Of a stretch of DNA of 64,000 bases, positions 17,476 to 63,177 are shown in pieces. The number at the start of each line of letters is the position of its first letter. Position 1 is the stretch's first letter. The DNA is from Apostichopus japonicus (lineage: Eukaryota > Echinodermata > Holothuroidea > Aspidochirotida > Stichopodidae): contig NC_092565.1 of assembly GCF_037975245.1 (NCBI RefSeq), positions 20,000,999 to 20,064,998 on the forward strand. Reading direction: 5' to 3'. The notes under the pieces are model-generated. The model had not been told where the DNA came from. It worked only from the letters and a program-made list of their open reading frames with translations, and did not search any database. The position numbers were made by a program, and so were the translations under genes.

Positions 17476-17939
17476 ACATGTAAGGAAAATATTGCCGTCA
17501 AAAAGTTTCTACAGAAAGCATACAAAATTAGTCTATGTGTGATCTTTGCCCGGCGTATAAAGCCATTGTGGCGCCACAATTGACTATCATATTTGGGTGA
17601 GATTACTGTATTTGTTCAAATATAATTATTTTCAATAATATCATATTTTCCCCCTTCTTGTTTGAATTTCTCTTTTTGGTCCATTCGTGTATACCGTGTT
17701 AAATGTGTTAATGTTAAATATGATTAAATGTGATTCTTGTGTCTATATGAGATATTTCAGAGTAAATGAATGAAGACAAAACAAAGAAACAACAATATTT
17801 ATTAGATTTCATTACTCCAGGGATGTATTACTTTAACCAGAATGCAAAAATGCATTGTGGTTTCGATGATGTAACATCAGCAGTTTTCTTCATGAATCTG
17901 ACGTAATGTATAGTGAGGGTGTACATGTTAACAAGGGTG

Positions 17940-18620
17940 TCATGATTTGACCTATGATGACCCCAAATGATCATTGACCTCCACCAAAAACAATAGGTTG
18001 CTTTAACTCAATGTGGTACTTCTACACACTGAATAAAAGGTCGGCCCAAGCTCCAAGTATTGAGATATCGTGTTTACGAGGCTTTCGCAACTTGACCCCT
18101 TGTGACCCAAAATGACCTCCACCAAAAACAATAGACTTTTGTACTCAATGTGGTACTTCTACACATTAAATATGAAGTCTGCCCATGTTCCCATCTTGAG
18201 ATATCGTGTTTACAAGGTTTCCACAATTTGACCCCTGGTGACCCCAAATGACATTTGACTTCGACCAAAAACAATAGGCTTCTTTTACTCAATGTGGTAC
18301 TCCTACATACAAAGTATGAAGTTGGTCCAACCTTCCCTTCTTGAGATACCGTGTTTACAAAGTTTTCACAATTTGTCCCCTGGTTACCCCAAATGACTTG
18401 CACCAAACACAATAGGCTTCTTGTACTTAACATGGTACTTCTACAAACTAACTATGAAGTTGGTCTGACCTTCCCTTCTTAGATATTGTTTTCACAAAGT
18501 TTTCACATTTTGACCCCTGGTTACCCCAAATGACCTGCACCAAAAACAATAGGCTTATTTTACTCAATTTGGTACTTCTACACATTAAATTGGTCTGACC
18601 TTCCCTTATTGAGATATCGT
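17940..18620. repeat. Satellite-like tandem repeat, ~137-146-bp unit, about 4-5 copies
   Basis: Diverged units share 'gacccctggtgaccccaaatg', 'accaaaaacaataggcttct', 'actcaatgtggtacttctac' and 'cttcttgagatatcgtgttt'. Successive 'cccctgg' anchors at 18232, 18377 and 18514 give spacings of about 145 and 137 bp. The minus-strand ORF at 18074-18433 is an artefact of the repeat. Confidence 0.9.
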
Positions 18621-30308: not shown

Positions 30309-32300
30309 TTATTGTGCCCGTTCGCAAATTTGTCCACGAACAAGTCCAGACTTCTCAACACGGTGACTCTCTATTGAAAGTACTGCCAGAATGCTCAAGC
30401 GGCTGTTTGCCATGAAATTCCTGACGAGAGTTTTGATGAGTGTTAGAGTCGAAAAACTCCTTTCGCATGCGGCGGATGTTACTGGTAGAACCAATGCAAT
30501 TTTGGCAAGTCTATAGAGCTCCCGGAAGGCCTCCTCAAATGGTTTTAAGGAGTTGGCGAACTCTAACAATGAATGAGGTGGTTCTTGCCCTTCCTTTTCA
30601 CGGCGTTGTAATAGACGTTTTACTGAGTGCATGTGCACTAGGTCTTCTCTGTTGGCATTGTAGGCTGTGGCGAATCCTTCCATGGTTTCATATTCCAACA
30701 AAATCGGGCTCTGGGGATGGAATGAAGGCAAAGATCGCATTATATTACATGCTTTTTTGTTGAAACGCCGATTCATCTCGGAAATGATGCGATCCAATGC
30801 AGGATACAAAAAATTCACTCGGATTTGATCCTTCACATCTGTACCCATCGTATCAGAGTCACCGTCAGCTGATCGTCCCAAATTTCCGACAGACTCCAAC
30901 ATGACGGAATCCCTGAAGTGCTCAGGTAGCCTACGTTTCATTTTCCTCTGTGTTGAAACGGCCATATCAATGTCGAAGCCCTGCTCCTCAACTGTGTTTT
31001 CTATCCTTCCCCAAAGTATGTCGAACGATACTGGGTTGTTACGCAGGTCCTCTAGAAGTGAAATAAGTGTCTCTGTTAGTTCGACTGCCTTTGCCAGGTC
31101 AAAATCAGTAGACTGGAGCATGTTTGACAATTGACTCGTCTTGGTGAGAATGTCAGAGAATACAACAAGCTTCATTAGAAAGTTTGCATCTAACTGCGCC
31201 AGGAGTCCCTTAGCTTCAACTGCTCGGTCAGCATTGTCCTCGTTCCCTATTTCTCCCAGGAGTCGTACTACTACTGGGAACCTATCTTTCATCACTCTAC
31301 AAGCATCTACTCGGCAGGCCCAGCGTGTATGGCAAGCCATGTGGGACAAACACGGCATAATATATCCGCGTATTAATTCGAATATATACGCGTATTAATT
31401 CGAATATACATGTGTTGTAGAAGTTTCGCTTTTTGAAGCGATCTCGCGAAAACATTTATCGTTGGTATATGTACACAACAAGAGCGGAAATGTTTTTTCG
31501 TGTATATTCTAATTAATCCGTGCATATATTGGATTTAATCTCCATATGTATTTTATTTAATACGTGTATATATTCGAATTAATACGTGTATATATTCGAA
31601 TTAATACGTGGATATATTCGAATTAATACGCGGATATATTTAAGCCATATGATTGGCTCATAATATATACGTGTATATATTCCAATTAATACGCGTATAA
31701 ATTCCAATTAATACGCGGATATATTATGCAGTGTTTGTCCCATATGGCTTGCCATAAGCGTGTGTGACAGAGCTGCTTTAGTTCTCGCTTTCGTTGTTCG
31801 AGATACATCTCCGCCTGGATGTCTGTCCATCTGGTGTGAACATATGAGCCACTCACAAATACATACAACTTCTCAAACAGAGAGAAAAATTGAGCAGCAT
31901 CCCGTACATTCTTCGTGACATCAACCAGAACCAAATTCAGTCGATGAGCGTGGCAGTGTATATAATATGCATGTGGTGCCTCCTGTGCTTCCCGAGCTGC
32001 TACGCCACTCTTCCTGCCACTCATTACAGAGGCGCCGTCATAGCCTTGACCAAGAAGTTCTCACGGTAGTCAATGCCGTAACTTTGTAGAACGTCCAATA
32101 TAGCAGTGGTAAGGGCTTCAGCATTCAGTGCGAATGCAGCTCTGAATTCTAGAAAACGTTCATGTATTTCGCCTTCAAAAAAGTAACGGATCACCAAATG
32201 AGATCTGCTCCACTTTGGAAACGTCTTTACTCTCATCTACCAAGATGGAAAACACTTGTGACTCCTTGACCTCCAGTGATAATCTCTTCCCTGATCATGT
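30309..32300 (-). pseudogene. hAT transposase (ZMYM1-like), broken
   Basis: Minus-strand reading order: FSILVDESKDVS (about 32270-32225), RYFFEGEIHERFLEF (32236-32024 frame), GQGYDGASVMSGRKSGVAAREAQ (about 32045 down), HAHRLNLVLVDV, HTRW, then after the nested insert the 30309-31358 frame with WACRVDA, and a C-terminal hAT dimerisation block LYRLAKIALVLPVTSAACERSFSTLTLIK...RLSILAVLSIE. Frame breaks near 32220 and 32040 and a 428-bp insertion at 31329-31756 destroy the gene. The N-terminal zinc-finger region is not recognisable between 32300 and the right end. The order matches RNase-H-fold hAT transposases with the insertion domain, like the ZMYM1/DUF4371 group; the subgroup is my judgement. 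Confidence 0.88.
31329..31756. mobile_element. Palindromic MITE nested in the hAT transposase
   Basis: A 428-bp insert (ends +/-1 base) with ~60-bp inverted repeats beginning (t)atggcaagccat and 'gggacaaacac'. Its inner part is built from repeats of 'ttaatacgcg(g/t)atat' and 'attcgaattaatacg'. It is flanked by agcgtgt on both sides (31322-31328 and 31757-31763), a 6-8 bp target duplication. Leaving out the insert and one duplication brings the two halves of the transposase into one frame at the conserved HTRW..CR site, which confirms the boundaries. Confidence 0.9.
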
Positions 32301-32980: not shown

Positions 32981-34000
32981 CACTGAAAACTTAAATTGGT
33001 TCACCGACTAACATAACGTTAGTCCATCTGGTGCCTCTCCCGACTAACATAGCCTTAGTCAGTTGCTATACCGACTAATTTATTCCTTAGTCAGTTGGAT
33101 TTCTTAGTCGGTCATCTTAGTTCGTCAGCTTAGTCGATCAACAATTTCTTAGTCGGTAAATGTATATTAGTCAGTTACATTAGTTGGTGACATTAGTATG
33201 TCTTTACCGACTAATTTATATGAGCCACCGACTAGTTTATAGCAGGTTTTACATTAGTCAGGATGGTGCCTCTCCCGACTAACCTTTCTTAGTCGGTATC
33301 GACTGACTAGTTGCACTGACTAGAATCACTGAAAGAATTAAACCCGACTAGTTTCACTGACTAGCATCACTGAAAGAAAAGAGAGCAGAAGAAACACAAA
33401 TAATGTGTACGTTGGCAGTATTTATTTCTGATAAAACTTCTGATGTCTACAAAAGGCTGACTTTCGACAGATAGAGAAGAAATCACTGTAAATAAAATCT
33501 GAAAATCTGATTTTTTTTCCAACAAAGTTAAGACAAGTTAATGGATCAAACATGAATCGCAAAAGTATAGCACTGCACAATAATGCAAAGTTGAATCTTG
33601 GGCAAGGGTTCCTCATGACTTTCGTTTTAAAGTGGTACCCCAAATCGACACCAGTTAAGTCTTCACGAACAACGAGTGTTTCCCTTAACTACAAATGGCC
33701 TCCTACTTGTCTTCAGGAAGCCAAAATCTGCACCATTATTGACCTGTGAACAGAAAATATGATATACGTGTAAGAACAGATACAGATATAGCACATGATA
33801 ACTCACATTATCATGAACATACATTTACATTAAAATTTTATAACATATTGGGAGGTATACATTTAAATCTAGGTCCCTCAAATTATAAGCCAGGAATAGC
33901 AGCTTTACCAAATTATTATTAGCTTTGCACAGCATAACACCAAGTTATTTCTCAAAGCTTAATAATTATGTTAATCATGTTAATAATGATCCCAATAGAC

Positions 34001-35387
34001 CGGGATCCCAGAGGGTTTGGTTAGCTGGGAAGGTAACCAATTGCCTTGTACATCACAATGTTCACAGTGCATTCCTGTATATGAAACCAGACGACTGGCA
34101 AACCGACTGTGGTGGATGGCTGGGAGAGCAATTTTAAAGTCACCTGATAGCTAACCTAGATCAGTTTTCATGGTAACACATCAAAGTAAGTACAATATGT
34201 CAGTTACGGCCCCAAGAGCAACAAATGGCCATTGCCAGTAATTATTGGTGGTGGGGTACCCCTGCCAGTGATCTATAATTGACCCCTCAAGGCTGACCTA
34301 GGTCAGCTAATGAGGTAACCACTTGAAACCTACTGGAAAATGTTGGTAAGGGCTTCAGATACAACTGATGGGCATTGCCAGTAATTTTTATTAGTGGGGT
34401 ACCCCTGCCAGTAGACCCCCAAAATGCCCATCCCCCATTGACCTAGATGAGCTCATGATGTAACCAGTTGAAAACTACTGGAAAATGGTATCACTTCATA
34501 TGTAAGGGATGGGAATTTCCAGTAATTTATATTGGGGGGAGGGGGTTCCCCTGCCAGTAGACCCCCAAAATGCCCATCCCCCATTGACCTAGATGAGCTC
34601 ATGATGTAACCAGTTGAAAACTACTGGAAAATGGTATCACTTCATATGTAAGGGATGGGAATTTCCAGTAATTTATATTGGGGGGGGGGAGGGGGTTCCC
34701 CTGCCAGTAGACCCCCAAAATGCCCATTCCCTCATTGACCTAGGTCAGCTCATGAGATAACCAGTTGAAAAATTACTGGAAAATGATAGGTATCACTTCA
34801 TATGTAAGGGATGGGCATTTCCAGTCATTTACATTGGTGGGGTAACCCTGCCAGTAGACCCCCAAAATGCCCATCCCCCTCATTGATCTAGGTCAGCTCA
34901 TGATTTAACCAGTTGAAAACTACTGGAAAATTATTGACAGGATTCTATATGTAAGGGATGGGTGGACTCTGGCAGTGGTGGCCCACCAGTATAAAATACT
35001 GGCAATGCCCATCCCTTGTATCTGAAGTCCTAACCAACATTTTCCAGTAGGTTTCAAGTGGTTACCTCATGAGCTGACCTAGGTCAGCCGTGAGGGGTCA
35101 ATTATGGGTCACTGGCAGGGGTACCCCACCACCAATAATTACTGGCGATGGCCATTTGTTGCTCTTGGGGCCATACCTGACACATTGTTTTTACTTTGAT
35201 GTGGTTACCATGAAAGCTGCTCTAGGTTAGCTATTAGGTGACTTTAAAATTGCTCTCCCAGCCACATCCACCACAGTCGGTTTGCCAGTCGTCAGGTTTC
35301 ATATACAGGAATGCATTGTGAACATTGTGATGTACAGTACCAGGCAATTGGTTACCTTCCCAGCTAACCAAACCCTCTGGACTCCCG
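34001..35387. repeat. Fold-back element: ~400-bp inverted arms around a ~147-bp tandem repeat
   Basis: Left arm from 34001 (cgggatcccagagggtttgg) is the inverted copy of the right arm ending at 35387 (ccaaaccctctggactcccg). Both arms share 'ttagctgggaaggtaacc', 'gacccctca' and 'cattgccagta' phrases over about 400 bp. Between them (about 34414-34970) are four head-to-tail units beginning gacccccaaaatgccc at 34414, 34560, 34710 and 34857 (spacings 146, 150 and 147 bp); the first two are nearly identical. There is no convincing ORF. As a single strand this would form a very long hairpin. Confidence 0.88.
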
Positions 35388-37567
35388 CTCTACAGATCAG
35401 TGAAAATTTGACCAAACTTATGAAGCTTGCACGTAAATGATATACTAGACTGTTTTTTTTTTAAAACAGGTTATGAAAAGTATCTTAAATATCATTAAAC
35501 AGTTGGGTACAATAGTTAAACTCACTCTTCCATCTTTTTTTCTCTATGGTACTTGTTCCTTTGCTTTTTGGACTCTTGGATAAACTCTTTTGTTCTGCGA
35601 AGGGTACCAATATATCATCTTAAAACATGTCTTTAAGCCATATATAACACAGTTCTCCTCTTCTGTTGTTGCCTCCACACTGGTGTCGTACATCACAGGA
35701 AAGCTCACCCTTGACTTAGATATTTGGCTTTTCAATTCCTGCTGGAAAAAAGAAACAGCAAAGTATTCATCATTTGAAAAAAATAAATAAATAAAGTTGT
35801 CACCACAAAGTTATGTGAGATTTGCTTCCACTATTGTCTCAAAAAACAACCCCAAAGTTTGAAGCAGACTGTATAAAGCTGAAAATTTGAACGAGAGTGT
35901 CATCACCATTGCAACCAGAATCAAATGCCCAGAATACAGAGATAATAAAACATGGGCTAAATCTTTGTTTGTTTTTATGATCTTTAAAAATATAAAATTT
36001 TAGAAACAGAAATGCACTGAGCCAACTTATTTATAGGCCTAATCGTTTTTAGTTGTTATTTTGCTTGCTCACATAACAAGCCTGTTTAGACCTAGGCTAG
36101 AGGAGAATCAGTACTTTGTTACACTAAGTTTGTCTTCGGTCGTTTTGATTTAGTCTTACTAGTAGTACTAAAGTATATAATGGACCGGCGAAGACTAGAG
36201 AATACCCAGAGTTTTAGCAACTGCGTTAAACTGTATCATCTGATCTATTATTTACGCCAATGAGTTTCATTCAATCTAGGATCAAAAAGAGAAAACTAAT
36301 TAATCTTAACCTTTAAACTTTGCTACTAAACAGATATGCTTGAATTACAAATAAATGTCAAAAACATCATAATCTAAGAATCGATGCATATACATATACA
36401 TAAACAGAATAATTTGAATTCGCGCAAGTGAACCCTGCACTACATTGGACAGAAAAAAAAACGTGCAATTAGACCAAACTAAACATACTAAATTTTCCGT
36501 TACTTCTACATTAAATATCAATACAAATACAACAACTTACTCTTTTGGCAGTATACTAAAAGCACATGTTATAATAACTTCAGACTATCAAGCTTTTCTG
36601 AGAAAAAACGGTTAATACTTCTTACAGTAAGCAAGTCGACCGTGAAGGAATGTCGCAATTGTTTCCTGGGCGTGACCGGAAATTAAATACTAAAAAATGA
36701 TAAATGAAAAGGTTAAATAGAACTGAAGCGTGCATCCTGACTGCTCGCAACATATCCTGACTGCTCGCAACATATGTTGACTAGCCAACATAATTTGTTC
36801 AGCCTACTGTGACTGTACGTTTGAAGGTCTAGCCTTGCTTATTCAATATCACAAAGCCTACCCATTTAGATTCACATGGGAAATTACAGGAAATCTTTAG
36901 CAAATGAGTGTAGACTTCAAATAAACTATTGAGCCTTATAGTTCCAGCATTTGTTTGGGAATAAATTAGAAGATTATGTGCCACTGTTCAATCTAGCCCA
37001 ATACACACATAACACATTGTTAATTGGTGTTTAGAATGCACACTTTAGTGTTGAGAATGCACTGCAGTACCCAGTAGAAGCCTATAGGCTACTCACTGTC
37101 ATTGCACTTGTGTATTGCGAAACGCCAACGTGACGACGGTAGCGTTACACTAACCATAATACAGTACTAGTGCCAGTGGCCTAACAATTAACTTTAATTT
37201 TACCTTCAAGTTAAAGGAATAACAGGTAGGCCGATGATGCAGTTAATACCTCCATTCTTCTAAAGACCTTCTTGGGTAATTTACGGTTGAAAGTTGCTTA
37301 AAGTGATCGTATGAAACTATGCCAAGCCCAGCAAGCTGCCGTTGCCTCTCGGTTTCCAAATTGAAGTGAATCGAATTGGGTTAAAATACATTAGTCCGTC
37401 GACAACGACTAAGCTACGATTATGGCTTAAATCGGGTGTCCGTATCGTTCTTAGTCCATGGGTTAAAATACCTTAGTCCGTCGCCACCGACTAAGCTGCG
37501 ATTATATTTTCCTTAGTCAGTGTAAACTAACTAAGAAGCAGCGATGAAACGAAGATTTTTGCTAGTG
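35388..37567. other. Interior of the CACTG composite; no recognised gene
   Basis: One minus-strand ORF (35735-35544) is preceded by an acceptor-like 'tttttccagcag' and reads ELKSQISKSRVSFPVMYD and onward to a stop. I do not recognise it; it could be a terminal exon of a gene carried by the element. A second possible short exon is on the minus strand near 33745-33660 (acceptor 'ctgttcacag', then VNNGADFGFLKTSRRPFVVK). At 36730-36770 'cctgactgctcgcaacatat' is directly repeated. The last ~180 bp hold the subterminal ttagtccg-type motifs. Confidence 0.35.
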
Positions 37568-37572
37568 CGTGT

Positions 37573-38415
37573 TTAGATGTTTCTGTGGAGAAACTAATCT
37601 AAAGTACAAAAAGATCGACATACCTTTAAATACTATGTCTTTCCACGTCCACATCCCGGATTGTTGCCAACGCCGGAATCCTCAGGCTAAGTCAGCTGGT
37701 GTTTAAGTTACCAGACTCTGTATATGGTTGAAAGCTAGATACTACGAGCTAGATGCTACAGGCCAGACGCTAATGATGGCGCTATGACGCTAAATAGTAT
37801 ACGGCTTCGCGATCCAGTGGCTTCCAGTAAGTAAGTGGTATATACTGTATCGCGTGAAGGCTTTCGCGACCGAATAGTCTCTAGGTACTAAAAAGATATA
37901 TGTATGAACACGTAAACACTCCACGAATCGGTGGCGAATATTTTCGCCAGCCCCTTTTAGAAGTGTTGATGCTCACGCTACATCTAGGTTATAATAAAAT
38001 ATAAGTCCTCGCTCGGCGCGATGGCTGTAGATATAAGTAAAAGTAGGTAAGGCGGACCTACGTATAAGTGCTATAGGCAGAATCAACGGTAGGCTATATA
38101 TAATTGGTAACGCTAAAATGTTCCTCGAAGTTAAGTCGACTTTAAGGTTGGATAAAGTGTCCTCGAGTAAAATCCACAGATAAAAATAAACGTTCTGTTA
38201 AAAGATCCTTAAATATACTAAAATACGAGAATCAATCGCTGTAGAAGTCGTTCGCTACAAAATATATACGGTTGGCCAGGTTAATCGCTCGTGTCGCTCG
38301 TCGGTTGTGCCCACGCTTCCTAGAAACTTTCTAACCCCTGAAAATCAGGGGCTTCCGGAAACCCGTCACGGAATGTTCAATTCTAAAGGAGGGTGGACGA
38401 AACTAAATCACTACA
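37573..38415 (-). repeat. 3' LTR of the Gypsy element
   Basis: 843 bp, the same length as the other LTR. Comparing line by line I find two differences (37575 a vs 43705 g; 37664-region 'acatccc' vs 'acaaccc'). In sense orientation it starts TGTAGTGATT and ends near AAACATCTAA. Confidence 0.95.
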
Positions 38416-38431
38416 ACTAGCTCCTCCCCAG
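38416..38431 (-). promoter_or_regulatory. Polypurine tract of the Gypsy element
   Basis: Reads ctggggaggagctagt in sense orientation, directly abutting the 3' LTR. This is the expected position for the plus-strand primer in reverse transcription. Confidence 0.75.
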
Positions 38432-38494
38432 ATTGCTGAGTAAGTGAGAGCAATCGAGTAAAACGATAAGTGTCGTACAACAGGAGCTAATGAT

Positions 38495-39106
38495 TCAATC
38501 GATGACGATGACTTCAACATAGCGGCTCGGCCAATGGACGTGTCTACCCGACCGAGTAACTCTGGTTGGTGGTGGCTTGGCGTTTTCTACAGGACGTGTA
38601 GGTGTCGAGGTAGCCGGGAGATCGGGTGTGGTAGGCGTAGTCGGTTTGGCTTTGTCAATGCGTCGAGACGGAGCTGAAGGTTTAGCGACTGTTGTGAATT
38701 CGTCGTCGAGGTACGCTGGTTTGAGTCGATCCAGACTGATGGTTGATCGCTTGCCACGTACCAAAAGAATAAAGAATTTATCATGTCGCTCGATGACTTG
38801 GTAAGGGCCATTGTAGTGAGGTTGTAATGGTGCACGAACAGCGTCGATACGTATCCAAACATGAGTGCAGGTATGCAGGTCTGGATGTATTTGGTTGCGG
38901 TAAGGAGGCGTTCTGGTCAAGGCAGGACGAAGGTTAGTCATGTACTGACGAAGACGATCCACGTAGTCAGATGGGTCCATCAGACTATCATCATCAGACG
39001 GTGAAACAATGTCACTGGGAAGAGCCAGTGTTGTGCCAAAAACCATTTCTGCAGCGGAACAGTTCATGTCCACCTTAAGAGAAGTGCGAATGCCTAAAAG
39101 GGCCAA
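38495..39106 (-). CDS. Gypsy Pol, integrase C-terminal part (out of frame with main Pol)
   Basis: A 203-residue ORF that continues integrase: [23 protein letters not shown] just after the catalytic core, a GPY/F module ([21 protein letters not shown]...LDRLKPAY), and a proline/threonine-rich basic tail. It is separated from the main Pol ORF by a frameshift at about 39106-39112, where a 5-bp unit (agtac in sense) occurs twice in tandem. Natural Pol would end here rather than at 39094. No chromodomain is seen. Confidence 0.85.
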
Positions 39107-41736
39107 AGGAAGTACTGTACTTCTGACCAGTGTGTGGAATCGGCAGCTGAAAGTGCTGACTTTAATTGCCGGTGAAAACGTTCCACAAGACCATTGGCTG
39201 CCGGATGGTAGGCGGTCGTTCGGATGCGATGTGTTCCTAGTAGTTGGTTAAGGTGGCGAAAGAGGGAAGACTCGAATTGCGAACCTCTATCTGTTGTTAT
39301 CACCGAAGGAACTCCAAAGGTAGAGACCCATCGTTTAACAAAGGATTTGGCTACGGTTTCGGCTGTGATGTTCGAAATCGGAATGGCTTCCGGCCATCTT
39401 GTAAAGCGGTCAACGATGGTGAGTAGATAGGAATATCCCTCCGAGGGTGGCAGTGGTCCAACAATGTCCATGTGAATGTGCTGGAAGCGGGTCTGCGTCA
39501 TCGGGAAACTACCAATTGGCGTTTTGGTGTGACGGTGAACCTTAACTTGTTGACACTTAATGCATGATTTGCACCAATTCGAGACATCTTTGTGTACGTT
39601 TGACCAAATGTAACGCTGCGTGATTAGTCGTTTGGTAGCATTGATGCCAGGGTGCGAAAGTGAGTGAAGAGAATCGAAGACTGCTCGTCGAAATTGTTGC
39701 GGAATGTAAGGTCTGGCTGTGCCAGTAGAGACATCACAGGTAATGGTGCCCTCCGCTGCGGGAAGGGGTACATCTGTAAGCTTTAACGAAGATGATTTCC
39801 GTAGCTGAATAAGCTCATCGTCGTGTTGTTGCGCAGATGCGATTGCTGTGAAATCGAGTGGTGATGAGGAGATAGTAACGCCGTATACGTTACGAGATAG
39901 CGCGTCTGCTACTACGTTGTCGCGACCTGGAATGTGACGTAGGTCGGTGGAGTATTGCGAAATATAATCTAGGTGACGAATTTCGCGAGGTGAATAGCGA
40001 TCTGGCTTGGAAGCAAAGGCGTAAGTAAGTGGCTTGTGATCCGTGTAGACCGTAAAGCTTCGTCCATCGAGCAAGTGACGGAAGTGTCGAATGCTAAGGT
40101 AGACCGCCAGGAGTTCTCGACCAAAGGCACTGTAGCGAGTTTCTGCTTTCTGGAGACGCTTAGAGAAAAATGATAATGGACGCCATGTACCATTGATAAA
40201 CTGTTGCAGGACACCGCCCACAGCAAAATCGGAGGCATCCACCATTAGTGAAAGGGTCGCTTGAGGCAACGGGTGATGAAGTAATGTCACCTGAGCTAAG
40301 GCAGTCTTGATGTCTTTGAAGGACTGGTGTTGTGCATCGGTCAGTTGAATAGATTTGTTCTTGACTTTAGACGAGAGTAAGTCAGTAAGAGGTTGCATAA
40401 GAGTAGCACAATGTGGAACAAAACGTCGATAGAAATTGGCTAAACCAAGAAATGCACGCAACTGAGTGAGGTTTTCAGGTGCCGGGAAGTCTTGAACTGC
40501 TTGAACCTTCTCAGGCAGGGGACGGATTCCCTGACTGTCAACGTGATGGCCTAAGAATTCAAGTGAAGACACTCCAAGCTCACATTTACTAGGGTTGATA
40601 TTAATGCCATAGCTGTCAAGTCGTTGAAATAACTGGTTGAGGTGTTGATAATGCTCCTCGGCAGAGGAACTAGCCACCAAGAGATCATCCAGATAGGCGT
40701 ATACAAAAGGCAAGCCTCGAAGTACCTCGTCGATGAAGCGTTGAAAGGTTTGAGCTGCGTTTTTTAGACCGAAAGGCATCCTAACGAACTCGAAGAGACC
40801 GAAAGGTGTCGTGATCGCGGTCTTTGGAACGTCGGCCGGTTCAACTGGAATTTGGTGGTATGCACGTACAAGGTCAATTTTAGAGAAGATTATCTTGCCA
40901 TGAAGGGTACCAGTAAAATCATGTATATGCGGTATCGGGTAGCGGTCTGGAATAGTGACGCTGTTGAGGGAGCGATAGTCTCCACACGGTCTCCAATCGC
41001 CTGACTTCTTGGGTACCATATGTAGAGGTGAAGACCAAGAACTTTCAGAGGGTCTGATAATACCTAATTCCAGCATATGCTCAAATTCGTTTTTGGCAAG
41101 ACGTAATCGATCAGGTGCGAGACGACGAGGACGGGCGAAAGTAGGTGGTCCTTTTGTGAGGATATGGTGGGTGATGTTATGTTTGACAGTGGCAGCTGTT
41201 CGACTGGGATTGACGAGGTGCGGAAACTGACGTAGTAACGAGCGATACTGTGAGTCGTGGTCATCAATGTGAAAAGTAAGATTGGAAGACTCTACTGTTG
41301 AACGAATACCAGTGATACTAAGGGAAGTATGAAGATCAAGCAGTCGACGATGCTTGATATCGACTAGTAATGAGAAGTGTTCAAGGAAATCTGCACCTAT
41401 GATAGGAGTTGAGACGTCAGCCTTAACAAAAATCCATCGGTAAATACGGCGTAAACCTATGTTGAGGGTTAGCGAAGATTCACCATATGTACCTATGTTG
41501 GTGAGGTTTGCAGCTCTTAAGAAAGATCTCGCTGGTGTAGTCTTCTCTTTGCTCGTGGCAGGAATAACACTAACCTCTGCACCGGTGTCGATGAGGAAGC
41601 GGGTTCCTGTTTCCCTGTCCATTACGTAGAAAAGACGACTCTTAGGAGTGGGGCCAGACAGCTGTGTCGTCCCTAGTTGCTGGCCTGCTTGTTTAACAGA
41701 TCCTGGGACTTCGGGTGTTTGCAAGGGGGGCGACAC
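39094..41736 (-). CDS. Gypsy Pol polyprotein (protease-RT-RNase H-integrase), C-terminus frameshifted
   Basis: An 880-residue open frame. Protease [13 protein letters not shown] (active Asp about 50); RT with [15 protein letters not shown] and catalytic YLDD (348-351); RNase H with MVDASDF (Asp500), Glu541, TDHK and ADALSR; integrase zinc domain H691/H695/C725/C728 and catalytic D757, D816, E852 (35-residue D-E spacing). The frame opens after a TAA about 12 bases before 41736 and overlaps the end of gag in the -1 frame, so it is probably made as Gag-Pol by -1 frameshifting; the sense run cgccccccttg in the overlap contains a C CCC CCT heptamer, a candidate slip site. The first codon at 41736 is GTG, so it is not a real start. 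All enzymes look intact, but the reading frame ends early in WPF because of a 5-bp duplication. Confidence 0.95.
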
Positions 41737-42542
41737 TTTCTTGCATTATCCCCAAAGCTGTTGTGAAAGTAACAAAAGCTTGGGTTGCCAGCTGGTGAAC
41801 GGCCACGAGGACGACTACGGGAGCGGGAGCGTTGTTTTAGCTGCTGGACGGTCCTGGTGAGCTCTTCTACTTGTAGGGATAGCTTATCCACTAGAGCGAC
41901 GAGGTGAGTTGTGTCGGGCGAAATTGATGTTTGTGCAACTTGTGGAGTGGCTGCGATGGCTGGTACGGAGTCAACGACTGCGGCGACGACTGGTGAGGGA
42001 GTAACCTCTAGAATTTTGTCGGCCAACGAGGCCAAACCGTGGATGTCAACTTGCTCGGAGGTAGAAGCGAGAATGAGCTGAACATTCGTGGGCAACCGTT
42101 GTAAGAAGAGTTGCTTCAGGATAGAGCTCTCGAGTTGCTGGTCTCCGAGGAGTTGGTACATGCGACGCAGTAGTTGACTCGGTTTTCTGTCGCCGAGGTC
42201 TTCAGTGGTCAGCAGCTGGCGTAGGCGCTTTTGTTCCGACTGAGATGTACGCTTTATGAGCTCGGACTTTAGAAAGTCGTACCGGTTCTTGGATGGTGGG
42301 GTGAGGAGTATGTCCCTAATTTCCTGAGCCACTTCCGGTTGGAGAGAAGAAATGACAAAGGCGAATTTGGTATCTTGGCTGGTAATACGGCGTGTAACGA
42401 AAAGGCTTTCTACCTGACCAAACCACAGGGCGGGGTCGTTTGGATAAAATGGGGGTAGTCTAAGATTAACTGCCGTAATGCTCGACTCTTGTGGCGGCTC
42501 GGGTTTAGACATGGTCGTAGCGGTTTCATCTGGTGTTGCCAT
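41673..42542 (-). CDS. Gypsy Gag with CHCC zinc finger
   Basis: A 289-residue capsid/nucleocapsid precursor. The N-terminal half has the Gag signature [20 protein letters not shown]...[10 protein letters not shown]; the middle is a helical capsid-like region ([22 protein letters not shown]); the C-terminal part is an Arg/Ser-rich basic stretch followed by a finger with C-x2-H-x9-C-x3-C ([18 protein letters not shown]). The CHCC order, rather than the CCHC of most retroelements, is a described mark of CsRn1-clade Gag. ATG 42542 is the first in-frame start and gives a typical Gag N-terminus. Confidence 0.92.
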
Positions 42543-42642
42543 CGTAACGTGAATGCCCTAGGCTACTAATGGAAATATACAATACAAAGCTAACACTTGA
42601 AGTGTAATAACAACTATGTGGGATAAAATCCAAATATATACG

Positions 42643-43569
42643 CTACAGATGGGACAGCAAATTACATACGTCTGCTGAAAATGCCCTACAAATCTCTAGA
42701 TGCCACCGTTGTTTTAGCGTAGACACTGCATGTAGACCGTCGTAGAGCTTGGTAAAAGTGTTGCGTACAATCGCTCTTGTAATCCGACCAGTACGATTGC
42801 GACGTGTAGTGGGGCGTCGAATGAAAGAATGCCAATTTACTGTACGCGTAGGGATCCCTGACTGATGCTGTTGATTGATATCGTGGATCGAGGCGTTAAT
42901 AGCGTCTAGCTTGCTGTCTAAGTCTCGTTGAAGTTGGTGTAGTTGCTCAGTGGAAAGAGTTGGCGTGGCTAAATTCTTGCGACTTTGAAATTTCTCGAAC
43001 GAGGCCGTAGGAATGGTGACAAAAGAAACTATACAATTAGGGTAAGTCTGTCTAAGTGTGTCACGAAAATGAATGAGCCTAGCAATAAGTTGATCAGCTG
43101 AGACAGATGAACAAGTAATAACTCGACTTTGCCTGGAAGTGCCTGTGAATGCTAACAAGTCGTTGATACCAGCTGCAAGACGTACTATCAACCAGTCGCT
43201 AGGGTTAAATCGTTGAATACGCTGTTGTGTGAGGGCGAGTAATTCTCCTACAGTGGCTCCACGCTTAATAACAAATTCAATACGATGCTGGAAGCTAGAT
43301 GGCGTAGTATAACGATCAAATGAATAGGCTCTAGAGTCAGCTACAAACAATAAATTTACAACAGGGCGGCTAATGTTAGACATTGGCAAAACATGTCTTA
43401 GGTCCTTCGTGAACAACCAGAAAATAGCGATAGGATGTAATAAACGTGAAAGGCCTGAATAATGAAGTGAGATAATCCTCCGTCTGGTAAATAATGAGGC
43501 AAACCGGTAATGTCTCTTGCCAAGAGTGAGTATCGAAAATAGACCAACACTGAAGTAACAAGACTCCAA
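42643..43569 (-). CDS. Extra ORF upstream of gag: putative SGNH (GDSL-like) hydrolase
   Basis: A 308-residue ORF between the primer site and gag, in the sense direction of the Gypsy element, ending 100 bp before gag. The SGNH-hydrolase landmarks occur in order: block I LLFVADSRAYS (Ser79, ADS in place of GDS), a Gly in block II (RGATVGELL, Gly104), block III AGINDL (Asn136), and block V LYDGLH (Asp277, His280). Between them IVRLAAGIND and IVSFVTIP fit the family's beta strands. The real start may be the internal ATG at 43383 (MSNISRPVVNLLFVADS), giving 246 residues, because the first 62 residues look like untranslated leader. Hydrolase ORFs of this fold are known in CR1/L2 LINEs (ORF1 esterase) and in some tyrosine-recombinase retroelements, but upstream of gag in a Gypsy element is unusual. 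Function is inferred from residues only. Confidence 0.72.
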   Translation of the reverse strand: MESCYFSVGLFSILTLGKRHYRFASLFTRRRIISLHYSGLSRLLHPIAIFWLFTKDLRHVLPMSNISRPVVNLLFVADSRAYSFDRYTTPSSFQHRIEFVIKRGATVGELLALTQQRIQRFNPSDWLIVRLAAGINDLLAFTGTSRQSRVITCSSVSADQLIARLIHFRDTLRQTYPNCIVSFVTIPTASFEKFQSRKNLATPTLSTEQLHQLQRDLDSKLDAINASIHDINQQHQSGIPTRTVNWHSFIRRPTTRRNRTGRITRAIVRNTFTKLYDGLHAVSTLKQRWHLEICRAFSADVCNLLSHL

Positions 43570-43680
43570 CGTTACACAACCATTGTAACACTAGTACAAA
43601 GTAAGCCCAACGATAGGCTACAGACTACAGAGTAAACAAGCAGAAGCTAAATCTAAAACAAGGCCAGAATATGGGTGAAA

Positions 43681-43700
43681 AAATCACGTCGGGGTCACCA
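43681..43700 (-). promoter_or_regulatory. Primer binding site complementary to tRNA-Trp
   Basis: In sense orientation tggtgaccccgacgtgattt begins two bases inside the 5' LTR. It is complementary to the 3' end of eukaryotic tRNA-Trp (...aaatcacgtcggggtca plus CCA), as I recall that tRNA. Trp priming is typical of CsRn1 elements. Confidence 0.88.
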
Positions 43701-43702
43701 AT

Positions 43703-44545
43703 TTGGATGTTTCTGTGGAGAAACTAATCTAAAGTACAAAAAGATCGACATACCTTTAAATACTATGTCTTTCCACGTCCACAACCCGGATTGTTGCCAA
43801 CGCCGGAATCCTCAGGCTAAGTCAGCTGGTGTTTAAGTTACCAGACTCTGTATATGGTTGAAAGCTAGATACTACGAGCTAGATGCTACAGGCCAGACGC
43901 TAATGATGGCGCTATGACGCTAAATAGTATACGGCTTCGCGATCCAGTGGCTTCCAGTAAGTAAGTGGTATATACTGTATCGCGTGAAGGCTTTCGCGAC
44001 CGAATAGTCTCTAGGTACTAAAAAGATATATGTATGAACACGTAAACACTCCACGAATCGGTGGCGAATATTTTCGCCAGCCCCTTTTAGAAGTGTTGAT
44101 GCTCACGCTACATCTAGGTTATAATAAAATATAAGTCCTCGCTCGGCGCGATGGCTGTAGATATAAGTAAAAGTAGGTAAGGCGGACCTACGTATAAGTG
44201 CTATAGGCAGAATCAACGGTAGGCTATATATAATTGGTAACGCTAAAATGTTCCTCGAAGTTAAGTCGACTTTAAGGTTGGATAAAGTGTCCTCGAGTAA
44301 AATCCACAGATAAAAATAAACGTTCTGTTAAAAGATCCTTAAATATACTAAAATACGAGAATCAATCGCTGTAGAAGTCGTTCGCTACAAAATATATACG
44401 GTTGGCCAGGTTAATCGCTCGTGTCGCTCGTCGGTTGTGCCCACGCTTCCTAGAAACTTTCTAACCCCTGAAAATCAGGGGCTTCCGGAAACCCGTCACG
44501 GAATGTTCAATTCTAAAGGAGGGTGGACGAAACTAAATCACTACA
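43703..44545 (-). repeat. 5' LTR of the Gypsy element
   Basis: 843 bp, nearly identical to the 3' LTR. It should contain the element's promoter and polyadenylation signals; I did not assign a TATA box with confidence. Confidence 0.95.
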
Positions 44546-44624
44546 CGTGTGCATTGACTAACGTTACAGACTAATTTAACGTTAGTCCGTGGCAATATTG
44601 ACTAGTTTATTTTTTCAGTGTAGG

Positions 44625-45700
44625 CTATATATATATATATATATAAAGCGTTTAAATTATTACTGATAGGATATGGCACTTTTACTGTCGCACCAAAAGC
44701 TCTTACTTAGTTATCAGTGTGCTCCTTCGTATAGGTAATTCTTGTCGACCTGACATGTTAATGCATGTAATATATGAAACGACAGGAAAAGACATCATGA
44801 GATTTGATAGACGTTTTTAATTTGCATCATCGTTTCAAAACGTGTATCGGTTACGTCATTATTTTCTTCGTTACTTATATAGACTGAATGTTTCTTTTTC
44901 ATTGATTTAAATGCTGTAAAGAAAGTTCTGGCTAGTGACTTCAGAAATTACTAACCGGTTTGTATATTACCGATCGCATGATCAAGGCCAAACTGTTGTT
45001 TCTAGTGCTCTTATTAAATTGCAACTAAGTTCACGAGGCCCTGAGCCCCGATTATCTCACTCCTCCCTCTAGATACATCATAAACGAGTGTTGGACGAAC
45101 ATCCAGATAGAATATAGTAAAGAATGAATTTTAGGCAGAATTTTAGTCTTGATATATTCTAGTCCAAGAAAAATTAAATTGGAATACTAATAATGTTTCT
45201 CTACCCACTGGTGTTCAAGATCATACACTTCTAAAATATGCTAAATCTCTGAAATGTTCCTTGATGACGTATATGCTCTTCGACGCAGGCCTATAAATGT
45301 TTATGTCAGTCCATTGTTTTAATCTGTTTAATAACTCAGCTCAAAACATATTCCAGAATATAATACTAACTGAATTTCATGTTTACACCTGAGAAGGGAA
45401 AAAGAGGTATACGGCCGCGATTTCTACTGCAAAACAAACATTAACGAAAGCGAGTAAGAGTGTACAATGGATAAGGCCTCACTAAATATTTTAACGGGAA
45501 TCATCATCCCCTGGCACCCCTCTTATCTCCCCCTCCCCACCCTTTCGAAAACGTGGCATCAGGATGGTATTCTGTGAGAGTTTGCTCTCATACGAATCCC
45601 TTTAATTATGTTCATTGTTGATAGCTGAATTGAACGTTTGAAGGCATTCTGTGTAATATTTAGTTAGTGGTTCAGGCAATAAACCGCAGTTATGCACTAC

Positions 45701-46840: not shown

Positions 46841-48789
46841 CAGTGGCGGAGATTTCTTGTCAGAAGTGGGGGGGTTGCAGGCCATTGATGAAATAAAAAG
46901 TCATAACTGCTGGCTCACTATCTAAGTGGAGCACCATAAGCACCATAAGTTGGCACGAAGTGCACAAGAATTTTTTGGCAAATATTGCCTCCCAGATTGC
47001 AGTAAATGGCACTGCCCAGTCCTTGCTGCATTTAACCAGGGGCATATGCAGGATTTTCTAACCCAGGAGGCGCATATTGCTATCTAAGCGGAGCGCCACC
47101 ATTGGTTGGCGCGCAGCGTACAAGCAAATTTCTGGTTTTGGTACCCCCAGATCACCGGAAATGGCACTTCTCGGGCTTGAAACAGACCAACCATATGTAC
47201 ACTTTTGCCTGAGAACCAAGTTTTTTCCAAATACTTTTTTACTCATCTATAACCTTTTAGAAGATTGTCACCAGTCACACATCATGTTCGACTTCATCAC
47301 ATATCCTGTGGATCATTGCTTTTGTAGGTGATTCTTCATCGCGGCCCACAATATCCGTCAGCCCCACTGTTCAGAATTTGACAATTTTAAATTCTCGTCA
47401 ATAAATTCACTTCAAAACATACCCATAATGTTGCACAAAATATCATCTATGGACAACCGATATAGAAAAACCTCCTTCAAACCCTAACAGACTGGTCAAA
47501 ATTGCACGAGTATGATGAAGTATGATGAAGAATGTTGGTTAGGGAATTTTCGAAAATTCAGACGGCTACTAAAAAATTTCGTTGAAGGAAATAAATATAT
47601 ACCAGATATTTCCGAAACCGAACACTACACACATCGACAGTTTTGAGCATGGGCGTAGATCAGTCTTGGATAATGGTGGTGACGCGTGTCTGTTCTATGA
47701 CACTATCTAAGCGGAGCGCGACCATGGGTTCGCGCGTAGCGTACGATTTTTTGGGACAAATATACCTCCCAGATCGCCGGATATAACACTTCCTAGACCT
47801 AATGATGCTCCTAAATCTCCTTAAGTTTTAGATCTCATGGCTTAGAAATTTAGTTTGGAGAAATACATGGGCGTCTGCAGAAAGAAAATCAGGGGACAAA
47901 TAATCCAAGTAGACTTTTGTATATACGATGGGTCTGGGGTCCTCTTCCAGAAAACAAATATAGACTGCCGCAAATGCGATTTCCGTCCTATATTTAACAA
48001 CTATGGATAAAATACAATAAAATGAGAACTGCTGCATGTCATTTGCACAATGCTGGATCAAACTGCGCCAAAGTTCAATACAGGGGAACTTGAAATGCAG
48101 CTATTGGTCAAGACAAATTGGTGGGGACACGGTATATCATGTCCCCGCTACTGAAAAAGTTGGTGGGGACGCGTCCCGCTGTCCTCACCAGGATCTGCGC
48201 CCATGGTTTGGAGGCTGTTTATCGTGGAACGCCATTTTCATGCTCACTGATATGATGTGATATCTGCTGTTTGCTTTACAAATTCGAATAATTTTGTCAC
48301 TGTTCCTCTTTCTCTTCCCGTTTTCTTGCCGTATTTTCTACTCCATCCTTTTCTCCTTTTCTCTCTTTCTTCTTTTTCTTTTCCTTCCTTCACCTCGTTG
48401 AAGTTGGCAAGTGTATACAGTTCCAAAGCTATTCAACAGCAACAAAACTTTATTTTGTGTATGTCTGTTGTGGGGTGAAGTTAGCGATATGAGCTACAAG
48501 TTCCAATGCGCAAGGTGGGGGAAAGGGGCTAGAAATAATGTGTGGGTCAATTCTAACTCGGTTTTCGGTCGTTAATTGTTGATGTTGCCTACCAGGTTAA
48601 AGGTTGAAATGACTTTAACAATTTCAAATTTAATAATTTGATTTATTATGCCATTTGGAGCACATAACATAGGCTATAACAGAACATTACTGGCAAAAAC
48701 TAGGGGGGTTGATTGTGTGGGCCAACCCCCCCTCTTCAAAAACTGGGGGGGTTAAAACCCCCCCAACCCCCCCTGTTTCTCCGCCACTG
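46841..48789. mobile_element. Non-autonomous hAT element, 1.95 kb, exact 8-bp target duplication
   Basis: Ends cagtggcggag (left) and ctccgccactg (right) are inverted copies, flanked by acgcacat on both sides (46833-46840 and 48790-48797). No transposase. The interior contains three diverged copies of a module 'atctaagcggagcgccacca..gg..cgcgcagcgtac' followed by 'cctcccagatcgccggaaat' (from about 46917, 47082 and 47702), then a ~450-bp segment with an inverted relative at 53222-53680. Same family as the MITE at 6386-7021. Confidence 0.92.
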
Positions 48790-51700: not shown

Positions 51701-53221
51701 TAAATGTAAGGGATACATTGATACATTTGATACATTTATAATTTCAGTGGGTTTTTTACTGAATGTGTATATATACAGTACGTAGTAGCTTAGCATGCCT
51801 CTAGACAACAGTTTGTTCTTAGCCTGTTAATGTCGTTGTGTTGATAGATTTGCCACATGTTGTGAAAGGTCCCTCATCATTCATACCTGTGTGTCAGGAT
51901 GTGAAATTTCTTCTTTACGTTTGTAGAGAAGTCATGCCAACAATCTGTTTCTCATAGATAATGAATGAACATGGCACATATGTTCAAGTGTTACTTGTAC
52001 AGTAGTAGTAAAGGTTATCTTGCCAAATAATTCAGGTTTGATGAGTTTGTTTGTCTCTTCTGATATTAAAATTGAATGAATAGGTGCTCACAAACTGTAC
52101 AAGATGATTCAAATATTTAAAGAAAACATAAACAATGAAACGGTAGACTCTCTGCACCTCCTCCACCTCACCCCCGTCTGACACCCCCCTCCCCTCCCAA
52201 CCTGCATGCCAACAATTAGGGTCACTTGGGAGGTATTTCTGTTATCACTGTAAAGTTAACAATATATGCTAAAGTTCAGGATTATACATTACTTCACACA
52301 TAGTCATGATTAAGCATTGAGGAAAGAAAGAAAGAAAAAAAGTCTTGCTGGTTGTACCTAGTAATGGAAGATTTGATTTACCGTTAAGGAAACTAATTGT
52401 TTTGTGTATAAGGGGTTGTCGGACAAAGAATTGCCAGGGGTTCTGACAGACCACTAGATAGCAACAATTCAAAAACACAAGAAGACAAGAGGGTCAGTCA
52501 TTGGCATTTGATACTGGTATCAGGGGTGAAGTTTGAAAAGGAGGAAGTGTGACGTTGGTCACTGGGTTTGTTGAAACCCACTTCCATACTGTATGTGTGT
52601 GTGTGGGGGTGGGGGAGGGGGGTGTGGAAAGGGTGTACCATGCCTGGGTATATGTCTATGATGTGTTGAATGCCACTAGAAATATCCAAGTAAGTTCATG
52701 TTTCACTGTTCTAAATTGTATAGATCTGGTATAAAAGTTATTTTAAAAATCCTTTCTCAGAAGTATAATACAATTTTTAGGACGTAACAAACTTTTCCTT
52801 CTATGAATTTTTTTTAGAAGACAATTCCAGTTATGACATTTGCATATACAGTATTTTCCTGGAGAGTGATGAAAAGTCGCATGAAATGCAGTTTGTTCTT
52901 TCGATCATCCATTTAGTTAGAAGATAAATTTATTTTGGATAAAATAAAGAGAAATGTATTCTTGGCAGCCTTGTGACATATATTCATTCCATTCTTAAAG
53001 TACATGTTTGCCATTTTCTTAAAAGTGTTCATTTGAAAGTCATGTGTTTTGTACCAAAGTGAAGTTAATTAAAAGCAAACAAGTATTTTATTATTATAGA
53101 TGCACAACTCCAGATAACGTTTGGGTTTTCTTCAAAATTTGATTTGACTTTTTCTGCCGCAAATTTGGATTCATCATTTATAAATACACCCAGGCATAAA
53201 TACTAATATGTATATAAGCCT
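48798..53221. other. No gene seen
   Basis: AT-rich sequence with poly-G/C patches and a few short unrecognised ORFs (49623, 50127, 52269, 52498). A short hairpin-like repeat 'ggggagttccattacaactccct' lies at about 48819, related to the one at 59115. Confidence 0.6.
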
Positions 53222-53680
53222 CACACCATGGGCGCTGATCCTGGTGGGGACAGCGGGACGCATCCCCACCAACTTTTTCAATGGTGGGGACATGATATAG
53301 TGTGTCCCCACCAATTTGTCTTGACCAAACGCTGCATCCCAAATTCCCCTGTATTGAACTTTGGCGCAGTTTGATCCAGCATTGTGCAAATGACATGCAG
53401 CAGTTATTATATTATATTTATCCACAGTTGTTAAATATAGGACGGAAATCGCATTTGATTCAGTCTATAATTGTTTTCTGGGAGAGGACCCCAGACCCAT
53501 TGTATACAAAAGTCTACTTGGATTATTTGTCCCCTGATTTTTTTTCTGCAGACGCTCATGTATTTCACAAACTAAATTTCTAAGCCATGAAATAACAAAA
53601 AATTAAGGAGGTTTGGGAGCATAATTGGGTCTGGGAAGTGTTATTTCCGGCGATCTGGGAGGTATATATTTGCCAAAAAC
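53222..53680. mobile_element. Partial hAT-family repeat, inverted copy of 47750-48206
   Basis: Reverse-complement match to the segment inside the 46841-48789 element: shared phrases include 'gcgcagtttgatccagcatt', 'gaccccagacccat', 'agtctacttggattatttgt' and 'ggcgatctgggaggtata'. It begins at 'catgggcgctgatcc' and fades after 'tatatttgccaaaaac'. No terminal cagtggcg end is seen, so it is a fragment or a distinct nested element with catgggcg ends. Confidence 0.82.
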
Positions 53681-61180: not shown

Positions 61181-63177
61181 ATGACGGGCAAGCCGACCCA
61201 TAGAACATGCACGTTGATGAAGCTGGCGTTTCCTTACATTGCTCTAGTTGTCTTCTACTTCCTATATCTCTTCATTGGTAGCCTAATATTCGGCGCCATT
61301 GAAGGCCAGACGGAGAAGGATGGCATCGTTGCACTTCAAGAGAAAGAAAACCAGATCAAGGAGAAGATCAGGGAGTTGTTTGCGAATCGATCTAAGGATG
61401 AAGGAGATGATGTAGATAAAGAAATTGAATTTCTCGACGAGATGTTGGAGGAACTTATTGAAACTGTTAGTCACCCAGACTGGATCCCGGGAAGGAGAGA
61501 TATATTAGGGGAACCGGACCCCTGGGGTATTCCATCCGCTATGCTTTTCTGTATGACGACTATTACAACCATAGGTACGGCACATGATTAAATCATTTTC
61601 TAGGGAGCAGAGGTAAGGGGGTGGGAGTGCAGAGGGGGAGGGTATCCGAAGTGAAACTCTATCCCCTCGTCATCTTTTATGAAATGAACAATTGGGATAG
61701 TGAAAAACCATTGACAATTTGTTCTTAAAAATCTTACGATAGTTTATTAGACGGAACTCGTAGGTTACGTCAAGCATCCAAAATATAGAACATTGTGATA
61801 TTTATTTCTCTTTCGTATAAGTGTCACATTTTTTGCGACCGGAATATACCCTTTCATATATTCATGGATATAACTTGATTTTCAAATTATTGACTACTAT
61901 ATATAAACATTATATGTATATACAATACTGGTGGGATACAATACACAGCATAAAAATGTGTTTCTTGTAAAGGTCACTGCGCAGTTTCAATCCTGAAACG
62001 ACTTAGAGGTAATTGAAAGACACGCGAGTTCTATTTCTGAACAAAAGTTTGCAAAGAGGCCCAACAAATAGGTGCAAGGACCTTGCGAATCATGTCAATT
62101 CAGTAATGGTCAACAGGTGCGGACCCAGAGGATGGGGTGTCCCCACATCACCCCTTATAAACACAACCAAGCAAATATATGCCTCAGAATGCACCATTTT
62201 CACGGGCAAAAGTTTCCTTGATTCTGAGGGAAGACCCCAAAATCCCCACTTCAAAGACCCCCTGCGCCAACCACTCCTTTTAAGAACACTGGATCCGCCC
62301 CTGATCAAACCGCGATACATTGTCTGCTAAGTTACATTAAATATTTTCATACTGAATTTGCCTCATTTTGGCTTTCTTTGACATTTTTTTTTTTTTTTGC
62401 TCTTTAGGATATGGTGATCTGGTACCATCCACCACAACCGGCCAGGTTGTGGTCATCCTGTACAGCTGTGTCGGCGTACCGTTCTCTTTTCTCCTCTTCG
62501 CCGTCATAGGTGGACTCCTAGCCCGACTCGCCTCTCGAATCGCCGTCTTCGTTCGTAAGTCACTATGCAGGATGAAACGTAGTAAATCGAAGCCGGCGGT
62601 GGCTGGGAGCGTCAGGAACGGTAACGTCTACCCAGATCTCAGTCAAGAGACGGGACTAGACAATGATGTCTTCGAAGAAGGAGAGGGAGTTAGTGATAGG
62701 GCAATCCAGTTACGAGACTTGAATCCCGCTGGTCAGAATGACCGGAAGAAGACCAATGGAGCACCGAGAACTCTCCAGAAACAACAGAGCATCTTTGTGA
62801 ACATTTCGGAAGAAGATGACGCCGGGGATGTGCCTTTCGTAGTCGTCATTTTATTGATGGTGAGTTATTTGTGCGTCGGAGCCGTCAGTTTCTCTATAGC
62901 GGAACAATGGAACTATTTTGAAGCGTTTTATTTTACATTTATTACCTTAACCACCATTGGATTTGGTGACTATGTACCGACACATCACTTTGAAAACAAC
63001 ACACACTTCCCGTGTTTATTGTACACGTTGGTCGGTCTGTGTTACATATCGATGTGTGTTTCTCTACTTCAAACGAGATTCGTCAAAGTCGTTACATTTC
63101 TTGGGAAAAAAATGAGTTCAGAAGAGAACGTCGAAAAGAACGTTGAAAGGAACGGTAGAGAGACTGAAACAGCTTAA
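61181..63177 (+). CDS. K2P (two-pore-domain) potassium channel, complete, 2 coding exons
   Basis: Plasma-membrane leak potassium channel; two subunits form one pore. Coding exons 61181-61574 and 62408-63177, joined by a phase-1 GT/AG intron inside the first selectivity filter (ATA G^GA TAT), give 387 residues. Order: short N-terminus, M1 (about 15-37), helical extracellular cap (about 41-98) with a possible N-glycosylation site NRS (69-71), pore 1 with TTIGYGD (about 129-135), M2 (VVVILYSCVGVPFSFLLFAVIGGLL), a cytosolic loop of about 90 residues, M3, pore 2 with TTIGFGD, M4, and a short Glu/Asn-rich tail. The ATG is supported by an in-frame TAG 12 bases upstream (61169) and a likely 5' UTR exon beginning at the acceptor ending 61020. 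Family and exon plan match the copy at 10017-10705, but the loops are unrelated. The subfamily cannot be fixed by eye. Confidence 0.92.
62114..62303. mobile_element. Probable hAT-type MITE in the K2P intron
   Basis: Left end caggtgcggacccagagg and right end 'ctggatccgcccctg' are imperfect inverted copies. I see no clean 8-bp duplication (flanks ...atggtcaa and atcaaacc), so the ends may be eroded. Confidence 0.5.

Follow-up and report, generated by a model that had tools for sequence, protein, structure and literature searches.

A predicted SGNH-fold esterase as the first open reading frame of a young Ty3/Gypsy element in Apostichopus japonicus

SGNH esterases are known, as far as the available parts of the reports cited here describe them, from non-LTR, tyrosine-recombinase, Penelope-like and long terminal repeat (LTR) retroelements (PMC5408684, PMC3905857, PMC9210276). 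The Vesta LTR elements of bdelloid rotifers carry a GDSL/SGNH open reading frame (ORF) as ORF3, and the Athena Penelope-like elements carry an SGNH ORF as well (PMC5408684). In the CR1/L2/RTEX group the esterase, exemplified by ORF1p of ZfL2-1, uses its surface charge to bind acidic phospholipids, and a role in bringing its complex to membranes has been suggested for it (PMC3905857). The Ngaro-like elements (DIRS order) of amphibians contain a Hydro-SGNH ORF, described as unproven in function (PMC9210276). Genes ahead of gag are a separate matter: in the env-less MDG1 group of Drosophila Ty3/Gypsy elements, the translated sORF1 and sORF2 lie between the 5' LTR and gag, sORF2 being linked to a passage from soma to oocyte that needs no envelope (PMC11952523), and plant elements may carry extra ORFs 5' of gag-pol (PMC7264820). 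The locus discussed here, in a 64,000-nt stretch of Apostichopus japonicus DNA (contig NC_092565.1, positions 20,000,999 to 20,064,998; "the window"), is a young Ty3/Gypsy element which reads on the minus strand, in the order of transcription, 5' LTR, primer site, SGNH ORF, gag, pol and 3' LTR. Like Ngaro it adds an SGNH ORF to a retroelement; unlike it, Ngaro is a tyrosine-recombinase element, with the ORF after the recombinase (PMC9210276). It is the position within a Gypsy element that is new. An earlier note on this DNA had held that no standard Gypsy layout has such an ORF in front of gag; no SGNH ORF 5' of gag was found in the open-licence literature, but the statement was too strong in general, as MDG1 elements have two small unrelated ORFs there (PMC11952523).

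The SGNH fold, the conserved catalytic and oxyanion positions, the place between primer site and gag, and the near absence of internal AUG or Met codons were computed directly. The 308-codon ORF reported in the earlier note occupies 42643-43569 on the minus strand, on which gag (41673-42542) and pol (39094-41736) are read as well; an antisense reading was ruled out, the plus strand of this region being full of stops. The four landmarks that the note had named stand at the residues it gave, in its numbering Ser79 (ADSR), Gly104 (RGA), Asn136 (AGIND) and Asp277/His280 (YDGLH), so that blocks I (Ser), II (Gly), III (Asn) and V (Asp-x-x-His) are present in order, and the five positions are conserved across the family. 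The first codon of the 308-residue frame is TTG. In 20 of 23 homologues the Asp of block I is preceded by 8-18 residues (the other three lack that part), and counted from Met63 the window protein has 15. The TTG start was therefore rejected in favor of Met63, and the real protein probably comprises residues 63-308, that is 246 aa encoded by 43383-42643. The structure model shows the predicted protein as one SGNH domain, and no further Pfam domain was recognized.

The identity of this protein is carried by its relatives and by its predicted structure. Homologues (23, at 30-54% identity) were found with E values reaching 5.8e-79; all except one, at 1.2e-14, score 1.3e-36 or better. The structure model is a confident SGNH alpha/beta fold, and the check by structure prediction that had been proposed excludes, at the level of the model, a fold lacking the SGNH architecture. 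In an alignment of 60 rows the non-gap rows retain Ser in 53/54, Gly in 56/56, Asn in 57/58, Asp in 55/57 and His in 57/57 cases. Furthermore, the family profile reaches three proteins (P0057-P0059) annotated as GDSL by PF13472/PF00657. Several results have to be set on the other side of the balance. The window protein has no match in Pfam, failing to reach the cut-off of Lipase_GDSL or Lipase_GDSL_2; among 24 members, Lipase_GDSL appears in three (best E 0.0048) and the second GDSL family in one, all below significance, while the unrelated family Det1 scored 0.0012 in one member, better than Lipase_GDSL. A profile search of the PDB returned no SGNH chain, with TASOR (0.0079) as best match, and the sequence search of the PDB and PHROGs with the single window protein gave no match, so that the significant single-sequence SGNH profile match foreseen earlier was not obtained in Pfam, PDB or PHROGs. 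Individual members also deviate: P0029 has Trp in place of Ser, P0041 and P0043 lack the Asp and P0056 lacks the Asn. The missed Pfam cut-off points to a limit of sensitivity and is no criterion of structure. That the frame is open by chance and its motifs merely resemble those of SGNH enzymes, for which the missing Pfam and PDB sequence matches might speak, was excluded by the homologues and the confident fold, and its probability is vanishingly small. An SGNH hydrolase fold is, judged by the model, nearly certain, and fold, conservation and the profile link to the GDSL-annotated proteins all support the proposal that a young Gypsy element has an SGNH hydrolase ORF before gag.

A tree of the 57 rows that reach 195 aa, without three that fall short of this length, places the window sequence with P0001 and P0002 (support 100/99) in a supported group of 30 rows. 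Many rows of this group are separated by long branches, and on such sequence divergence the family is ancient. Linkage to gag in other elements can be approached through contig sizes. The longest contigs of three SGNH and three gag matches, from the same source type, are exactly equal in size (7537, 12783 and 9321); when the sizes of the 16 and 22 contigs that measure 5 kb or more were jittered at random by ±10%, 50,000 trials averaged 0.02 coincidences and never reached three. Judged by this equality, at least three other elements probably carry gag and SGNH together on a contig. A fourth equality, 1286 nt for P0002 and P0174, was discarded, because the sources differ and short sizes coincide easily. 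The gag side of the comparison covers 120 listed of 1138 gag matches, a sample from which further gag/SGNH pairs can be neither added nor excluded. Relatives sought by DNA pattern were confirmed neither in viral contigs (111 and 10 pattern matches) nor in prokaryotic genome contigs (24 pattern matches), which fits a eukaryotic family; one homologue is named as Holothuria leucospilota.

It could be argued that a host esterase gene was captured by chance in a single insertion and has no role, the more so as only one copy was read. Against this stand 55 relatives which are not GDSL-annotated and mostly of similar size, the well-nested position of the window sequence in the tree, the three probable contig pairs and a depletion of Met common to the family. 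One-off capture was rejected on the nesting, the pairs and the depletion, and is very improbable. The SGNH ORF is, on the comparison of sequences, with high confidence a working gene that the element family has conserved.

Two observations on the relatives may be recorded here. P0030 and P0044 are named as belonging to a Sedimenticola metagenome-assembled genome, yet the family is unconfirmed in prokaryotic contigs, and it is suspected that this bin holds DNA of the host animal. Eight proteins (P0031, P0036, P0040, P0042, P0044, P0048, P0049 and P0051) have a Ser-rich and acidic C-terminal tail which finishes in or near a basic motif resembling W-(K/D)-(F/R)-(K/R); the tail is missing in the closer clade of the window protein.

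A second characteristic of the family is its poverty in methionine. The window protein has no Met in the 245 residues after its start; internal Met accounts for 9 of 5464 residues in P0001-P0023, 15 of these 23 proteins having none, and for 26 of 8193 in P0024-P0056 (17 of 33 without any), compared with 349 of 35068 in the listed gag matches and 14 of 634 in P0057-P0059. At the level of nucleotides, the window SGNH ORF contains two ATG triplets in all frames, whereas shuffled sequences have 7.6 ± 2.2 (P 0.006). No such deficit is seen in gag (5 versus 4.6), pol (30 versus 27.0) or the antisense of the SGNH ORF (16 versus 16.1); the leader has 2 versus 3.9 and the spacer before gag 0 versus 1.4, neither significant alone. 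By the weak/strong rule for start contexts, the SGNH start is weak (TTGCCA ATG T) and the gag start strong (GTTACG ATG G). It can be rationalized that ribosomes would initiate only sometimes at the weak SGNH AUG, and that those bypassing it, or resuming scanning after short upstream ORFs, would meet few AUGs and reach the strong AUG of gag; Pol would then be made by -1 frameshifting. Along these lines, bicistronic loci of green algae, where an AUG-depleted first ORF starts in a weak context and is followed by a second, are explained by leaky scanning (PMC11892635). The algal loci, as described, are cellular genes in which scanning was tested in vivo, whereas for the Gypsy element it is deduced.

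Scanning to gag is on balance the probable cause of the AUG depletion, but some findings detract from it. Gag is itself poor in Met (1.0%), the contrast between SGNH and gag being only about 4-6 fold, and the Fisher tests on Met counts treat related residues as independent. The leader (43384-43701) contains two short upstream ORFs, one from ATG 43583 in strong context (3 codons) and one from ATG 43394 in acceptable context (12 codons, overlapping the SGNH start); with upstream AUGs in such contexts, simple leaky scanning is insufficient and reinitiation would also be needed. Finally, the LTR contains, a short way upstream of the primer site, a sequence resembling a 5' splice site, AAG|GTATGT (43751-43756, minus strand, a putative donor at 43753); no donor-like site of the whole element scores higher (9.5 by weight matrix), and only the corresponding site of the 3' LTR, at 37623, scores as high. 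Because the strongest donor-like site adjoins upstream, gag might come from spliced RNA. The enzyme would then be the same, with this donor joined to an acceptor before gag, the SGNH ORF being intronic, so that its translation would require unspliced genomic RNA; shortly upstream of the gag start lies a stretch rich in pyrimidines, with TTTCCATTAG at its end, which would suit such an acceptor. Splicing leaves the loss of AUG within the SGNH ORFs of the family unexplained, however, and for the fly MDG1 elements with ORFs 5' of gag the available part of the report gives full-length RNA and no detected splicing (PMC11952523), so that this route appears rather unlikely. If scanning does hold, the purging of AUGs would couple the dose of enzyme to the dose of capsid. 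The AUG-free frame thus offers a testable idea for the expression of a gene before gag, and a Met-free ORF 5' of gag a signature for searches.

As to function, attention is drawn to a basic segment immediately before the catalytic DGLH (residues 248-275 of the 308-residue frame, 42745-42828, minus strand). Between the invariant His247 and DGLH the family has 26-30 residues with a median net charge of +8, and the charge is at least +5 in 52 of 54 rows, P0039 and P0043 being the exceptions; the model folds the segment largely as a beta hairpin with strands 189-195 and 201-208 (model numbering). The family protein as a whole is basic (median pI 9.9). The window protein contains no stretch resembling a signal peptide or membrane anchor, its maximum 19-residue hydropathy being 1.16, and only 5 of 56 relatives exceed 1.6. 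Gly at position 2 occurs in none of the 120 listed gag matches, so that gag lacks an N-terminal myristoylation site. The enzyme would be pictured as a soluble, basic cytosolic protein associated with RNA or Gag, whose basic segment may dock it on acidic membrane lipids. There it would cleave an acyl or acetyl ester, the substrate being conjectural, and the hydrolysis would help the particle or RNA of an element without recognized envelope to associate with or cross membranes. The docking proposal is made by analogy with the ZfL2-1 esterase, and it is tempered by the GDSL-annotated outgroup, whose 12-residue segment is also basic (+4 to +5), basicity thus not being unique to the family. A membrane-lipid role is a tentative suggestion, somewhat short of an even chance.

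The same basic character, with its conserved segment, would suit a structural or binding module for RNA or lipid in which catalysis is not required, and it should be noted that turnover by the CR1-type esterase is slow and that its active-site mutant is described as still binding liposomes (PMC3905857). Binding alone would not require that Ser, Gly, Asn, Asp and His be retained in all but few of the 54-58 non-gap rows at 22-55% identity, and a purely binding protein is distinctly unlikely. The interpretation preferred here, that a Ty3/Gypsy (metavirus-like) element has an SGNH-fold esterase as accessory protein, encoded by the first gene of the genomic RNA, together with the scanning and membrane roles, is held with moderate confidence. 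A bolder version, in which a widespread Gypsy lineage of marine animals has a three-gene RNA with the membrane-acting esterase first, its frame purged of AUGs for scanning in the course of a long evolution, and uses the esterase for budding, entry or passage from cell to cell without envelope, is speculative and unlikely as a whole.

The remaining parts of the element, all on the minus strand, are readily assigned. The 5' LTR (844 nt, 43702-44545) and the 3' LTR (37572-38415) are 99.76% identical across 844 nt, and CACG lies beside both ends (44546-44549 and 37568-37571, read from the sequence) as a short target-site duplication. The primer binding site (43684-43700) reads TGGTGACCCCGACGTGA at 43700-43684, which we take to match the 3' end of animal tRNA-Trp. 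A 100-nt spacer without ATG (42543-42642, 98 nt of which entered the ATG count) separates the SGNH ORF from gag, whose 289 aa carry DUF7041 (PF23055, E 2.5e-32) in the N-terminal part; among the matches listed, its nearest named relatives are from Apostichopus japonicus (91% and 100%, with 73% and 53% of the query covered, respectively). The pol ORF has a protease motif, namely a weak Pfam match (0.03) and a DTGA motif spotted by eye, followed by RVT_1 (241-399), RNase H (466-595), Integrase_H2C2 (678-733) and rve (751-845). As -1 frameshifting takes place on heptamers of a known pattern, C CCC CCT at 41724-41730, in the gag/pol overlap and in the correct gag phase, is a candidate site. With LTRs, primer site, short target-site duplication, and gag followed by a pol in the order reverse transcriptase, RNase H, integrase, this is a Ty3/Gypsy LTR element. 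An Rfam scan of 37000-45500 gave no match.

In this copy pol appears, from its reading frames, to be disrupted inside the integrase: the ORF ends at 39094, while an ORF in another frame (38495-39106), without Pfam match and assigned by eye, resembles the integrase C-terminus. The element as a whole therefore appears not to be intact, and the description of an intact ORF in an element with near-identical LTRs holds for the open SGNH frame and for the LTRs, though the start is probably Met63 rather than TTG and pol appears broken. The break may be an assembly error or mark a recently disabled copy; unless it is the former, this element, though young, probably lacks autonomy in its present state.

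Elsewhere in the window, inverted repeat arms of about 470 nt with 90% identity (47748-48216 and 53217-53679, about 5 kb apart) perhaps belong to another mobile element. A 349-aa ORF on the minus strand (30309-31358) with a hAT dimerisation domain (E 1.9e-9) is a DNA transposon remnant or a gene, and diverged direct and inverted repeats cluster at 33996-35392 and 17926-18629. Host-like exons of Abhydrolase_3 (alpha/beta hydrolase) and Ion_trans_2 (ion channel) type are seen at 100-864 and 21787-22503 on the minus strand and at 10076-10705 and 62368-63177 on the plus strand.

In comparison with the described systems, again within the available parts of the reports, Vesta comes close in being an LTR retrotransposon with an extra SGNH ORF that retains its catalytic residues, a passage through membranes having been proposed for it (PMC5408684). 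Compared by description only, the Vesta gene is ORF3, after gag (ORF1) and pol (ORF2), whereas the present one precedes gag; AUG depletion is not mentioned in the available description of Vesta. P0057-P0059, the nearest GDSL-annotated relatives within reach of the family profile, share the DSR, G, GIND/GVND and LYDGLHP blocks with the family but differ in length (208-221 aa), in a 12- rather than 27-residue segment before DGLH and in their normal Met content. With ZfL2-1 the family shares the SGNH fold with S-G-N-D-H and the location upstream of a polymerase ORF, and ZfL2-1, too, has a basic surface; that esterase, however, belongs to the gag-like ORF1p of a non-LTR element, alongside a coiled coil and an RNA-binding domain (PMC3905857), in contrast to a separate 246-aa protein beside a true gag, in which only the single SGNH domain was found. 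Residues specific to transposon esterases are H191 and S228 in ZfL2-1; by plain counting, with ZfL2-1 outside the alignment, Ala132 stands four residues ahead of the block-III Asn, and it does not vary in one alignment of the family. The MDG1 proteins, also encoded upstream of gag, measure about 110 and 70 aa; one of them is FAST-like and transmembrane, and they are non-enzymatic and without SGNH fold (PMC11952523), unlike the present protein with its 246 aa, SGNH fold and low hydropathy maximum. A repeated recruitment of SGNH enzymes by unrelated retroelements, suggested earlier for this locus, would agree with the literature. Where an ancient, conserved esterase stands alone next to a normal Gag, it is kept apart from the tasks of a Gag-like protein, and its role in retrotransposition becomes directly testable. 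If the bolder version given above is true, the esterase would be the counterpart, in lipid chemistry, of the fusogen-like sORF2 of the fly MDG1 elements.
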